From Roseovarius sp. M141 (GTDB taxonomy: Bacteria > Pseudomonadota > Alphaproteobacteria > Rhodobacterales > Rhodobacteraceae), in assembly GCF_024355225.1 (NCBI RefSeq), contig NZ_VCNH01000008.1, positions 1,612,001 to 1,676,000 on the forward strand: DNA of 64,000 bases, in the 5' to 3' direction. Under the pieces are notes generated by a model that had not been told where the DNA came from, ran no database searches, and was given only the letters and a program-made list of their open reading frames with translations. Positions 56,323-60,656 of the stretch are shown piece after piece. How positions within the stretch are numbered: the first letter of the stretch is position 1; each line of letters begins with the position of its first letter. Both the position numbers and the translations under genes were made by a program.

Positions 56323-56476
56323 AAACACAATCCCCCAACACATACACCCACCCGGGCTGGCATACTCGGGCAGACTCAAAAGTTAACACGATTCGCCCCG
56401 CCAGATAACGATAAACCGCTGCCTCCACGCCGACAGACGCTTTACGAGCATTGGCGCCACAGTTATGACGCGAGCC

Positions 56477-58798
56477 ATGAGCGATAAGATCAAAACTCCC
56501 GGCGCGCCTGATGGCGCTATCCCCGAAGCGGTGTCCGAGACGCTGCGCCGTGCCATTGGCGACCGCTATCTGACCTATGCGCTCAGCACGATCATGCACC
56601 GCGCCTTGCCCGATGCGCGCGACGGGTTGAAGCCCGTTCATCGACGTATCCTGTATGCAATGCGCGAGCTGCGTCTAAGTTCCACCGGGGGCTTCAGAAA
56701 ATCGGCAAAGATCAGCGGCGACGTGATGGGTAACTATCACCCGCATGGCGATGCGGCGATCTATGATGCCATGGCGCGCCTCGCGCAGGATTTCGCGGTA
56801 CGCTATCCGCTGGTCGACGGGCAGGGCAATTTCGGCAATATCGACGGCGATAATCCCGCCGCCGCGCGTTATACCGAGGCGCGCATGACGGCGGCGGCCG
56901 AGGCCTTGTTGCAGGGGCTTGACGAGAATGCCGTCGATTTTCGGGACAATTACGACGGCACCCTGACCGAGCCCGCCGTGCTGCCCGCCAGTTTCCCGAA
57001 CCTTCTGGCCAACGGGTCCAGCGGTATCGCGGTGGGCATGGCGACCAACATCCCGCCGCACAACATTGCCGAGTTGATCGACGCCTGCCTGCATTTGATC
57101 AAGTTCCCGAATGCCGGCGATGACAAGCTGCTGGATTTCGTGCCCGGCCCCGATTTCCCGACAGGCGGCGTCATCGTCGAGCCGCCCGAAAATATCGCGC
57201 AGGCCTACCGCACCGGGCGCGGCGCCTTCCGCCTGCGCTGCAAATGGGAGATCGAGGATCTGGGCCGCGGCCAGTGGCAGATCGTCGTCACCGAGATCCC
57301 CTATCAGGTGCAGAAATCCCGCCTGATCGAAAAGATCGCCGAGATCATCCAGCTGAAAAAGATCCCGATTCTGGCCGATGTGCGCGACGAGAGCGCCGAA
57401 GATATCCGTCTGGTGTTGGAGCCGCGCAGTAAGAATGTCGCGCCCGAGGTTCTGATGGGCATGATGTATCGCAATTCGGACCTGGAAGTGCGATTCTCGT
57501 TGAATATGAACGTCTTGATCGACGGAGTTACACCAAAAGTCTGCTCGATGAAGGAAGTTCTGCGCGCCTTCCTCGACTTCCGCCGCGAGGTGTTGCAGCG
57601 CCGGTCGGTCTACCGGATGGAAAAGATCGACCACCGGCTGGAAATACTGGAAGGGCTGATCGTCGCCTTTCTGAATCTTGACAGGGTGATCGATATCATC
57701 CGCTATGACGAGGCGCCCAAAGCCGCGCTGATGCGCGAGGATTGGGGGCAGGACTTTGTCCGCGCGACGGACGAATCCGACTACGTTTCACCTGCGGACG
57801 GCGGCGAGGACGGGCTGACCGATCTTCAGGCCGAATCCGTCCTGAACATGCGCCTGCGCAGCCTGCGCCGTCTGGAAGAGATCGAGCTGCTGAAAGAGCA
57901 AACCGCCCTGATGGAAGAACGCGCCGGGCTGGAGGATCTGCTGGAGCATCCCGAATTGCAGTGGGGCGCAATCGCGGATCAGCTGCGCGAGGTCAAGAAG
58001 CTGTTTGGCAAATCATCCGCCGGGGGCGCGCGCCGCACGCAGTTTGCCGTGGCCGGCGCGGTCGAAGACGTGCCGCTGGAGGCCATGATCGACCGCGAAC
58101 CGATTACGGTGGTGTGCAGCCAGATGGGCTGGATCCGCGCCCTGACCGGCCATATCGACCTGACCCGCGAGCTGAAATTCAAGGATGGCGACGGCCCCCG
58201 GTTCCTGTTTCACGCCGAAACCACCGACCGCCTGCTGGTCTTTGCCGGTAACGGCCGCTTCTACACGATTTCGGCCTCCAGCCTGCCCGGCGGGCGCGGC
58301 ATGGGCGAGCCGTTGCGCCTGATGGTAGATCTGCCGAATGAGGCCGAGATCGTCGATATCCTGATCCACAAGCCTGGCCGCAAGCTGCTGGTTGCCTCCA
58401 GCGCCGGCGACGGCTTTGTCGTGCCCGAAGACGAGGTGATCGCCCAGACGCGGGGCGGCAAACAGGTGCTGAACGTGCGCACCCCCACCCGGGCCACGGT
58501 ATGTCGGCCCGTCCAGGGTGATCACGTCGCCGTTGTGGGTGAAAATCGAAAAGTGTTGGTTTTTGCACTGTCCGAGCTGCCCGAAATGGGGAGAGGCAAG
58601 GGGGTTAGGTTGCAAAAGTACAAGGATGGCGGGCTGAGCGACGCCGCGACATTCAACATCGAGGCCGGTCTGACATGGCTGGACCCCGCCGGGCGCACGC
58701 GCACCGAAGCGGCCTTGGATGAATGGATCGGCAAGCGGGCCGGGTCGGGCCGAATGGCGCCACGGGGCTTCCCGCGGGATAACAAGTTCACAGGATGA
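56477..58798 (+). CDS. parC: DNA topoisomerase IV subunit A
   Basis: Decatenating topoisomerase subunit of 773 aa from MSDKIKTPGAPD (a start at 56465 would add four residues). The catalytic tyrosine is in NPAAARYTEARMT. The quinolone region reads GNYHPHGDAAIYDAM, with alanine where E. coli ParC has Ser80 and aspartate for Glu84. The C-terminal beta-propeller is short compared with GyrA and lacks a GyrA box, which supports ParC. parE is not nearby. Confidence 0.93.
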   Translation: MSDKIKTPGAPDGAIPEAVSETLRRAIGDRYLTYALSTIMHRALPDARDGLKPVHRRILYAMRELRLSSTGGFRKSAKISGDVMGNYHPHGDAAIYDAMARLAQDFAVRYPLVDGQGNFGNIDGDNPAAARYTEARMTAAAEALLQGLDENAVDFRDNYDGTLTEPAVLPASFPNLLANGSSGIAVGMATNIPPHNIAELIDACLHLIKFPNAGDDKLLDFVPGPDFPTGGVIVEPPENIAQAYRTGRGAFRLRCKWEIEDLGRGQWQIVVTEIPYQVQKSRLIEKIAEIIQLKKIPILADVRDESAEDIRLVLEPRSKNVAPEVLMGMMYRNSDLEVRFSLNMNVLIDGVTPKVCSMKEVLRAFLDFRREVLQRRSVYRMEKIDHRLEILEGLIVAFLNLDRVIDIIRYDEAPKAALMREDWGQDFVRATDESDYVSPADGGEDGLTDLQAESVLNMRLRSLRRLEEIELLKEQTALMEERAGLEDLLEHPELQWGAIADQLREVKKLFGKSSAGGARRTQFAVAGAVEDVPLEAMIDREPITVVCSQMGWIRALTGHIDLTRELKFKDGDGPRFLFHAETTDRLLVFAGNGRFYTISASSLPGGRGMGEPLRLMVDLPNEAEIVDILIHKPGRKLLVASSAGDGFVVPEDEVIAQTRGGKQVLNVRTPTRATVCRPVQGDHVAVVGENRKVLVFALSELPEMGRGKGVRLQKYKDGGLSDAATFNIEAGLTWLDPAGRTRTEAALDEWIGKRAGSGRMAPRGFPRDNKFTG

Positions 58799-58808
58799 AC
58801 TTGGTGCG

Positions 58809-59177
58809 CTAATCGTCTGTTTCAGTGCAGAAAATCAACCGATTACCTGCCGGATCGGCAATCTTCATATCATCAAAGCCCCACGGCTGGCGCTGCACGC
58901 CGGGGCGGGCGTACTTGTATTTTTTTGCATTGAGGTCGCGACAATAGCCGTGCACGTCGTCCACCTCGATCCGGACCGCCGCGCCGGGCGACGCATCGCC
59001 GTGATGCTCCGAGATGTGCAGCACGCAATCACCCCGCTTGAGCGACAGATAAAGTGGCGCGTCGTCTTCGAAGCGATGCTCGAACGTCACAACGAAGCCG
59101 AGAAAATCGATGTAAAAGGCGCGGGTCGCCGCCTCGTCATAGCTGCGCAGAATGGGAATGGGCGGATGCATCTTCAT
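58809..59177 (-). CDS. Glyoxalase/bleomycin resistance-like protein
   Basis: VOC protein of 122 aa. It starts MKMHPPIPILRSYDEAATRAFYIDFLG-like and carries LYLSLKRGDCVLHISEHHGDASPGAAV and the final block MKIADPAGNRLIFCTE, close to bleomycin-binding members. A metal site is plausible, but the substrate is not known. It is convergent with parC. Confidence 0.85.
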   Translation of the reverse strand: MKMHPPIPILRSYDEAATRAFYIDFLGFVVTFEHRFEDDAPLYLSLKRGDCVLHISEHHGDASPGAAVRIEVDDVHGYCRDLNAKKYKYARPGVQRQPWGFDDMKIADPAGNRLIFCTETDD

Positions 59178-59530
59178 GGCGCGTAGATCCTATGTCGTTA
59201 TGTCAGACAGTCTGGCGCCGGGCCGACCCTGTCAAGCGGTGTACCGGACAGCGCCGCCCTGCACCGGATGTACGACTTGGCGTAGGCGCGACACCCGCAA
59301 AAAAAGGCGACCCGATCGGGCCAGCCCCTTACGGCAAATGTTGAAATAATCACTTCTGTTGCCCGCACGGTGACCAACATTCCTTTTCAGGGAAGACGCT
59401 TGACGGACGCTCAGGGGAAGAATCAGGTTTGGTATGGCTCGAAGATATCTTCGACGGCCCGTAATCCAAGCCTTGCATCGCACTGACAAATAATTACTAT
59501 TGTTAGTGCAGAGTGTAGATGGAGGACTCC
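59178..59530. other. 353-bp gap containing the left inverted repeat of the toxin-antitoxin unit
   Basis: No gene is supported here. The right part holds the 37-bp repeat arm (59311-59347), after which about 180 bp lead into the antitoxin start and should contain its promoter and operator. The left 130 bp show no recognised feature. Confidence 0.5.
59311..59347 (+). repeat. Left arm of 37-bp perfect inverted repeat
   Basis: Identical over 37 bp to the reverse complement of 60117-60153; similarity continues outward for about seven more bases with two mismatches. It contains the palindrome CCCGATCGGG and TACGGCAAATGTTGAAAT at its inner end. It bounds the segment that carries the toxin-antitoxin pair. 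Confidence 0.92.
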
Positions 59531-59794
59531 ATGACCAACCTTACTATCAGAATGGACCCGCTGGAAAAGGACAAGCTGATGGCTTGGGCTGCGGCCAGAG
59601 GAACAAGTGCCACTGACTACATCAAGCAACTGGTCGCCGCTGACATGGCAGCTGGAAGCCCTCAGGAGCGCGCCGCTGCCTGGTTCCGCGAAAACGAAGT
59701 TGCGATTTCTACTGAGGCGCAACATATTAAAAACAGGGGTGTTCCAGGATCGCATCTGGCCCTGAACCATCCCTGGCCCGATGCAAAAATTTGA
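59531..59794 (+). CDS. Antitoxin, ribbon-helix-helix type (CcdA-like)
   Basis: Protein of 87 aa. The N-terminal LTIRMDPLEKDKLMAWAAAR followed by GTSATDYIKQLVAADM fits a ribbon-helix-helix DNA-binding domain; the C-terminal half (AAWFRENEVAISTEAQHIKN) is a likely toxin-binding tail. GGAGG lies 6 bp before the ATG at 59531; an ATG at 59519 overlaps that site. It overlaps the toxin gene by 14 bp. Base composition is clearly lower in GC than the neighbours, suggesting recent arrival. Confidence 0.78.
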   Translation: MTNLTIRMDPLEKDKLMAWAAARGTSATDYIKQLVAADMAAGSPQERAAAWFRENEVAISTEAQHIKNRGVPGSHLALNHPWPDAKI

Positions 59795-60080
59795 CGTCCT
59801 CAAGATCGGCGGCGATCTGTACCTGGTTGTCCAAGCAGAACACTTATTGGACCTCAACACGACCGTTCTACTGCCGATCTTGCCGGCTGATATGCTTTCT
59901 ACCCTGAGGCAGCTTACCATCGATGTCCGGATCGAGGGCGATCTCTATCGCATTCGTACACATATGCCACTTACGGTGGATGCGCACGGTTTGCGGCATC
60001 TGACGCCTGTCCATCGGCTCTCTCCGGATGAAGGCCAAAAGGTGATGGATGGCCTTTACGCGATCTTGTGGGGGCTTTGA
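59781..60080 (+). CDS. CcdB-like toxin
   Basis: Protein of 99 aa. The pattern FDVLKIGGDLYLVVQAEHL, then TTVLLPILPADML, RIEGDLYRIRTHM and the C-terminal helix ending LYAILWGL follow the CcdB order, in which the last residues (W and G) contact DNA gyrase. The overlap with the antitoxin and gene order antitoxin-toxin also match ccdAB. Gyrase poisoning is inferred from family resemblance. It ends 36 bp before the right inverted repeat. Confidence 0.78.
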   Translation: MQKFDVLKIGGDLYLVVQAEHLLDLNTTVLLPILPADMLSTLRQLTIDVRIEGDLYRIRTHMPLTVDAHGLRHLTPVHRLSPDEGQKVMDGLYAILWGL

Positions 60081-60116
60081 GAGATATTCCGGCAAACTCG
60101 CCTGAGCGTAACAGTA

Positions 60117-60153
60117 ATTTCAACATTTGCCGTAAGGGGCTGGCCCGATCGGG
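60117..60153 (-). repeat. Right arm of 37-bp perfect inverted repeat
   Basis: Reverse complement of 59311-59347. On this side the palindrome extends to GGCCCGATCGGGCC within an AAGGGG...CCCTT hairpin, which could also act as a terminator for the toxin gene. The outer side abuts the 3' end of the gene at 60183. Confidence 0.92.
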
Positions 60154-60182
60154 CCGCCCTTCTTGCCGTCTGCTGCGGGCGG

Positions 60183-60536
60183 TCACTCCAGCGTGTTGCC
60201 CTGCTTGATCATGCCTGTTCCGGCGCTTTCGCCGTTCTGGAACCACTCCAGCTGGTCGCCGTCGACCTGCGCCTGATAGCAGCCGAAATCAGTGCCGGGA
60301 TAGCAGACGCCCTCTTCGGTGATCTCATACGTGCCGCCGCCCGATGCATCCTCGTAGGTGCCATCCTCGGCGAAATAGCTGGCATAGCCGCCACCGCCCA
60401 TGTCGCCGGAAAAGGTGTTGCCGACCAACGCAGCGCGCAGTTCTTCAACGGTGGACTCGGCCACGGCGCCGGTCGCGAAGGCGCCAAGGGCAAGGGTGGC
60501 TGCCAGAGCCGTACGGGTGATGATTCGGATGGTCAT
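60183..60536 (-). CDS. Exported hypothetical protein
   Basis: Protein of 117 aa from MTIRIITRTALAATLALGAF, a signal peptide likely cut after AVA near residue 25. The mature part has repeated GGG-Y/T segments (GDMGGGGYASYFAEDGTYED, GGGTYEITEEGVCYPGTDFGCY) with a cysteine pair. This looks like a small periplasmic beta-sheet domain; no family is recognised. Confidence 0.72.
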   Translation of the reverse strand: MTIRIITRTALAATLALGAFATGAVAESTVEELRAALVGNTFSGDMGGGGYASYFAEDGTYEDASGGGTYEITEEGVCYPGTDFGCYQAQVDGDQLEWFQNGESAGTGMIKQGNTLE

Positions 60537-60656
60537 AAGCGTTATCTCCGCTGTTGGTTGCACCCTAGTAGATAGGGTGAGGGGTCGGCATTCAATGGGG
60601 CCGAGGGCGCAATCCCGCGCTGATGCGCGCCTTTTCGCCCGGCGACTGGACGTGTC

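Follow-up and report, generated by a model that had tools for sequence, protein, structure and literature searches.

A CcdAB-like toxin-antitoxin pair in Roseovarius lies in a probable mobile insertion cassette that carries no transposase

We examined a window of 64,000 nucleotides from Roseovarius sp. M141 (contig NZ_VCNH01000008.1, positions 1,612,001 to 1,676,000), in which a CcdAB-like toxin-antitoxin (TA) pair is enclosed by perfect inverted repeats. This unit is very probably a mobile insertion cassette (MIC) moved in trans, that is, CcdAB-like passengers between terminal inverted repeats (IRs) of insertion sequence (IS) type, without a transposase. The comparison on which this is based covers the ends, the target duplication, empty sites in relatives, ends shared with an IS, sister cassettes and the predicted fold of the IS transposase; from it we infer the movement in trans, a role for a subterminal palindrome, the function of rebuilt terminators, and addiction. 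The original prediction, made from this DNA alone, had proposed a minimal mobile cassette that brings an addiction module but lacks a transposase, and the same ends around other cargo, the target duplications, the empty sites and transposase-coding kin all bear it out. The parts of the unit are as follows:

59311-59320, no strand: left target duplication CCCGATCGGG, 10 bp (loop and upper stem of the host terminator)
59321-59344, plus strand: left terminal IR, 24 bp, CCAGCCCCTTACGGCAAATGTTGA
59321-59455, plus strand: conserved left end, including a subterminal hairpin after the IR; 83.8% identity over 136 alignment columns with the left end of a 2354-bp IS (loci L139 and L140)
59439-59454, no strand: subterminal palindrome TCGAAGATATCTTCGA
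59531-59794, plus strand: CcdA-like ribbon-helix-helix (RHH) antitoxin gene; start at 59531 preferred from comparison with L167, with an ATG also at 59519
59781-60080, plus strand: CcdB-like toxin gene, 99 amino acids, overlapping the antitoxin gene
60120-60143, minus strand: right terminal IR, 24 bp, exact
60144-60153, no strand: right target duplication CCCGATCGGG, 10 bp

The arms at 59311-59347 and 60117-60153 are, as had been described, exact reverse complements of 37 nucleotides, and a repeat search lengthens them to 61 nucleotides at 85%, which is expected if a terminator surrounds them. Although the repeat is exact, the arm is not the single unit that it had been taken for, since it consists of two separate parts, the 10-bp target duplication and the 24-bp IR. 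Because CCCGATCGGG is palindromic it reads as a direct and as an inverted repeat, and so was mistaken for part of the arm while the duplication was overlooked; the earlier statement that no target-site duplication was evident is thus wrong. The boundary between IR and duplication is fixed by relatives whose duplications are not palindromic. The transposed unit therefore spans 59321-60143, 823 bp, and a tblastn search with the transposase described below gave no match inside it. Its G+C content (0.529) is, as predicted, lower than that of the adjoining 2 kb on each side (0.613 and 0.647). The label "MITE-like" has to be dropped, as miniature inverted-repeat transposable elements are multicopy, gene-free and about 30-300 bp long in the definition given in PMC4133298, and this unit is 823 bp long, has two genes and exists in one intact copy in the genome.

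The enclosed genes are of the predicted kind. The RHH-type antitoxin has 91 amino acids counted from 59519, or 87 from the better start at 59531, and the toxin scores above its Pfam cut-off (PF01845, 30.5 bits against 28.6), with no match in NCBIfam. The toxin ends in a C-terminal WG, a dipeptide which in CcdB has a role in gyrase binding. About 1 kb away from the toxin gene there is a gene for a topoisomerase IV/gyrase subunit A (window 56465-58798); this nearness is probably a coincidence, since the subunit A gene is also near the 126-amino-acid gene next to the cassette in four of seven relatives without the insert.

A DNA search of 60 genomes, including the window's own, found parts of the unit in two further Roseovarius genomes, with the arm core around other DNA. 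In one (G011) the core encloses a Phd-like gene, which scores below cut-off, together with an unassigned 140-amino-acid gene, in the other (G034) a Fic gene. The aligned ends have CCAGCCCCTKACGGNAAATGTTGA in common, and the sequence outside it varies by case and is directly repeated on both sides. Ten of 394 family genomes, the window's own included, have a 22-bp core at up to two mismatches, at three places per genome at most, and thus not at hundreds of gene ends as ordinary terminators would; its reversed control had no match among the matches listed. The 24-bp form with up to three mismatches was found at 31 places in 12 of 79 genus genomes, again with its own; there the reversed control matched once in each of two genomes, so that a few of the weakest 24-bp matches may be due to chance.

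Scanning species genomes (84,980) with a degenerate pattern gave 38 stretches, all with titles that name Rhodobacterales. These 38 loci comprise 21 pairs that were kept, eight of which are the same places as loci taken earlier and were counted once, a low-quality pair that was dropped (L078), and 16 single arms, two of which (L051 and L076) are the arms of one element already whole as L036. With duplicates removed, 28 paired elements were compared, the window's and 27 others. L035, whose second arm is doubtful, and the sub-group elements L156-L158 stand outside the 28; L032b and L143 were used for the palindrome count alone (n=30). Four contigs of one metagenome-assembled genome (L053, L054, L060, L065) have an IR at most 60 bases from the contig end, the pattern to be expected where an assembly is broken by near-identical copies. 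Two elements lie back to back in one hairpin at L032 5434-8722 and at L143 3112-3883, the second element of such pairs having a variant IR (CCAGCCCTTTGCGGTAAATGGTGCA in L032). A lone left end, 72% identical and with the palindrome, lies between map and a MarR gene on a plasmid of Sulfitobacter dubius (L151 3001-3138), where no second IR was found.

The flanks of these elements are repeated as expected of target duplications. An exact 10-bp repeat is present in 14 of the 28 and an exact 9-bp repeat in five more (19/28), as against none of 756 pairings of mismatched left and right flanks. Counting at least 9 of 10 matching positions, unshifted, the figures are 17 of 28 and 0 of 756.

In the window, the cassette interrupts the hairpin that terminates the gene at 60183, with the two terminator halves outside the two duplications. 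The host features are:

60154-60168, minus strand: upstream half of the host terminator stem (gene at 60183); the other half and the T tract are at about 59299-59310
60183-60563, minus strand: host gene that received the insertion in its terminator, 126 amino acids, no Pfam match
58809-59177, minus strand: VOC/glyoxalase gene, the next host gene on the other side of the cassette

The 126-amino-acid gene was matched at all in 42 of the 79 genus genomes, and we read the region downstream of the orthologues in seven of them, at 72-86% identity, the matches beyond these being weaker. The TA pair is missing at the corresponding position in all seven. Two of them (L084, L085), the only ones in which the VOC gene is the neighbour, are empty sites that keep the VOC gene, an intact hairpin with its T tract and the gene orthologue without an insert. 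A hairpin, also without an insert, lies downstream of the orthologue in L081, L082 and L083, and the downstream sequence is different in L080 and L086. In order to score the sites, we removed the inserts and asked of the joined sequences a hairpin with 6 pairs or more and a 7-base stretch containing 4 or more T. This was passed by 17 of 28 joined sites and by 5.2% of 2800 positions drawn at random from these loci. Terminators are a preferred target, not an exclusive one. Terminator-like hairpins and 9-bp repeats were also seen, by eye, at the three sub-group elements L156, L157 and L158 (transposase 47-48% identical; IR CAAGCCCCTTACC).

Half of the elements (14/28) carry toxin or toxin-antitoxin genes, from several families and with one weak candidate (L012). 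CcdAB-like genes are found in L039 and L041 as well as in the window, MqsRA in L036, L038 and L047, ParDE-like genes in L031 and L063 (antitoxins assigned by eye), HipAB in L030, and Fic in L013, L034, L048 and L059, the gene of L048 being broken. A whole or partial transposase of about 570 amino acids occupies ten others (L032, L033, L037, L050, L058, L064, L073, L139, L140, L146), and the remaining four have other genes (L043, L055, L056, L061). The transposase element at L037 9925-11671 also has a 307-amino-acid gene with an N-terminal Glyoxalase_8 match and a 182-amino-acid gene of unknown function. Other cargo between the same arms, with target duplications, had been named in the original prediction as a check on it, together with the distribution of the arm and the state of this position in relatives, and all three agree with a mobile cassette.

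Some of these cassettes recur. The Fic cassettes come from four genera: those of L013, L034 and L048 match that of L059 at 95.7-98.5% identity. The MqsRA cassettes, from three genomes, share 89.6-92.4% identity. When the 1500-bp flanks on each side of these sister cassettes were compared, none of the nine pairings showed similarity, and the flanking repeats of the cassettes differ. Such sisters at unrelated sites are the clearest evidence that cassettes of this kind move as units.

The first 135 bp of the window unit match, at the identity given above, the left end of an IS that occurs twice in another genome of the genus (G467). The two copies are 99.8% identical and have the same break in the transposase frame; a programmed frameshift was considered and set aside, as no slippery run was seen by eye. 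Left ends of elements with an open transposase are 67% (L037), 71% (L058) and 72% (L032, over 101 columns) identical to that of the window unit. Outside the same IS end, the two copies in G467 have 23 bp of host sequence in common (L139 1515-1537, L140 3715-3737), and one copy has an intact 10-bp duplication while the other has none; host DNA may have been taken along in a transposition, or gene conversion may have occurred. The transposase has a predicted DDE (RNase H) fold in a VIA-align comparison, and three of the proteins match the IS1 model at 29.9, 24.6 and 22.7 bits, below the NCBIfam cut-off of 100. Relatives of this transposase at 26-32% identity, annotated only as hypothetical, are found on plasmids of Rhizobium, Polaromonas, Acidovorax and Marinobacter (L152, L153, L154, L155). 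Those of Rhizobium and Marinobacter have similar IRs and, by eye, 9-10-bp repeats, and lie outside terminators; no flanking IR pair was found for those of Polaromonas and Acidovorax.

The palindrome TCGAAGATATCTTCGA, which we spotted by eye in three elements and then counted in 30, is present with up to three mismatches in 29 of them, at about 116-129 bp from one end in 21 elements and at about 74-90 bp in eight. Only 3 of 51 flanks of similar length reach this level of match, two of them through a neighbouring second element. It lies upstream of the transposase gene where there is one, and is kept in cassettes whatever the direction of the cargo. We infer that it is a further cis-acting site, used in transposition or in controlling it.

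With IRs of IS type, passengers without a transposase and a target duplication, the window unit is, as far as sequence can tell, a mobile insertion cassette, and the shared ends and sister cassettes suggest movement in trans by the IS transposase. The most likely mover would be the DDE transposase, of about 570 amino acids, from the IS group whose ends the cassette shares. This protein would recognise the 24-bp IR, with the subterminal palindrome perhaps a further binding site, and would cut the stem-loop of a terminator at staggered positions, 9-10 bp apart, to which the ends are then joined. By inserting into the hairpin of the intrinsic terminator that lies downstream of the gene at 60183, the unit would have duplicated 10 bp, and the IR tip GGGGCTGG, on the outward strand, would pair with the leftover host stem to give a hairpin at both outward junctions. 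The tip, read outward as AAGGGGCTGG, can pair with the leftover GCC arm of the host terminator, and the window's outward junction hairpins have 12 pairs followed by T7 on the left and 10 pairs followed by TTCTT on the right. When all junctions were scored, 22 of 56 passed (in 6 of the 28 elements at both ends, in 16 at one end or more), against 9.4% of 2800 controls made of a tip and a random flank. Part of this excess comes from the insertion sites being terminators, and insulation of the neighbours by rebuilt outward terminators is therefore offered as a suggestion. Once in place, the TA pair would favour retention, as loss of the cassette would expose the cell to the longer-lived toxin.

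Several observations weigh against a cassette moved in trans. No transposition was observed. A second copy of the window's own CcdAB cassette was not found; among 394 family genomes, its own included, two match its CcdB, and in G218 the homologue (58%) belongs to a homologous pair that lies between ordinary genes without cassette ends, from which it follows that the toxin pair is independent of the cassette. The window's genome shows only a remnant of the transposase, and given this the copy may be stranded. The antitoxin falls under every Pfam cut-off (PF07362, 15.1 bits against 22.4), which is why the pair is named CcdAB-like. In nine of the 28 flank pairs there is no exact repeat of 9 or 10 bp (9/10 positions match in three and 8/10 in one, and one has a palindromic 10-mer shifted by two), and the repeats of L050, L055, L140 and L146 match poorly. 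If shifts of up to two bases are allowed, at least 9 of 10 positions match in 18 of 28 elements, but also in 2 of the 756 cross-pairings. Eleven of the 28 sites are below the terminator score, and folding energy against shuffles is weak (median z -0.8, 11/28 below -2); the stem-and-T score was adopted after the folding-energy test, as a second measure picked after the first.

Some of these points would fit an autonomous IS that decayed in place, losing its transposase to the TA pair without any movement of a cassette. The left end in the window is that of an IS, broken copies of the transposase are common, and both the armless pair in G218 and the single copy of the window's cassette agree with it; as sister cassettes nevertheless occur as units at unrelated sites, with Fic in four genera and MqsRA in three genomes, we consider it improbable. 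The original prediction had offered as its alternative two copies of a repeated terminator, between which homologous recombination placed the TA pair. Its terminator part stands, for the outer 10-12 bp, and with them the duplicated palindrome, are the core of a genuine host terminator. The recombination part is very unlikely: only the inner 24 bp are common to the elements and the outer sequence varies between them, the empty site has one terminator, and CCCGATCGGG is found at 14 places in the window's genome, where the intact IR pair is present only in the window, with two further single, degenerate IRs elsewhere. On Acinetobacter plasmids TA modules lie between inverted short sites, which would speak for a site-specific recombination module of the Xer/pdif or integron type, but neither the 9-10-bp duplication of target sequences that vary nor the predicted DDE-type fold of a protein encoded by elements sharing these ends fits Xer recombination, so that such a module is hardly credible.

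A cassette moved in trans has counterparts among known systems. Like IS1, the helper transposase has an N-terminal zinc ribbon/helix-turn-helix match, and the IS1 duplication, near 9 bp, resembles the 9-10 bp of this family; unlike IS1, the helper protein has about 570 amino acids and scores 22.7-29.9 bits against the curated cut-off. MIC231 of IS231 is reportedly a named mobile insertion cassette. The MICs beside TnXax1 in Xanthomonas are described as passengers between transposon IRs, without a transposase and presumably moved in trans (PMC7157771, PMC4133298). The window's family shares these properties with both, but differs from them in its transposase group, in its mostly terminator-like sites, and in that half of its elements have toxin or TA genes of several unrelated families. 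Tn3 ends were weighed for their length and set aside because of the 9-10-bp duplications and of their sequence. Tn3-family transposons can carry TA pairs, with a TnpA of about 1000 amino acids and IRs of 38-40 bp (PMC7157771), and so likewise have TA genes within a transposable unit, whereas the units described here have no transposase, 24-bp IRs and 9-10-bp duplications. TIMEs, which are Tn3-derived, also lack a transposase and have IRs and a target duplication, but their 38-bp ends, 5-6-bp duplications and AT-rich targets, according to PMC4133298, are of Tn3 type and unlike ours. IS1272 also uses a stem-loop target, which it is reported (PMC5678879) to replace without leaving a duplication, whereas this family duplicates 9-10 bp within the stem-loop. 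No description of the element family was recognised in the literature searched, most subscription journals and ISfinder being outside that search. What seems to be new is the combination of an IS1-related, unassigned transposase group, a preference for terminators, and toxin modules as the commonest cargo.

A wider proposal, tentative and somewhat more doubtful than probable, is that these elements form a dedicated system for spreading chromosomal TA modules. An uncatalogued, IS1-related IS lineage of Rhodobacterales would support transposase-less cassettes which pick up unrelated toxin modules and insert in intrinsic terminators, with IR tips matched to the stems so that outward hairpins re-form with little harm to the neighbours. 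How TA modules reach chromosomes and persist there is an old question, and the cassette offers a concrete vehicle for them: its ends are defined, its family favours one kind of target, and a protein that may act as helper can be named. A habit of landing in terminators would account for the way in which these units settle among housekeeping genes without breaking them, and the 24-bp IR with the subterminal palindrome provides a marker for annotating genes that are now called hypothetical.
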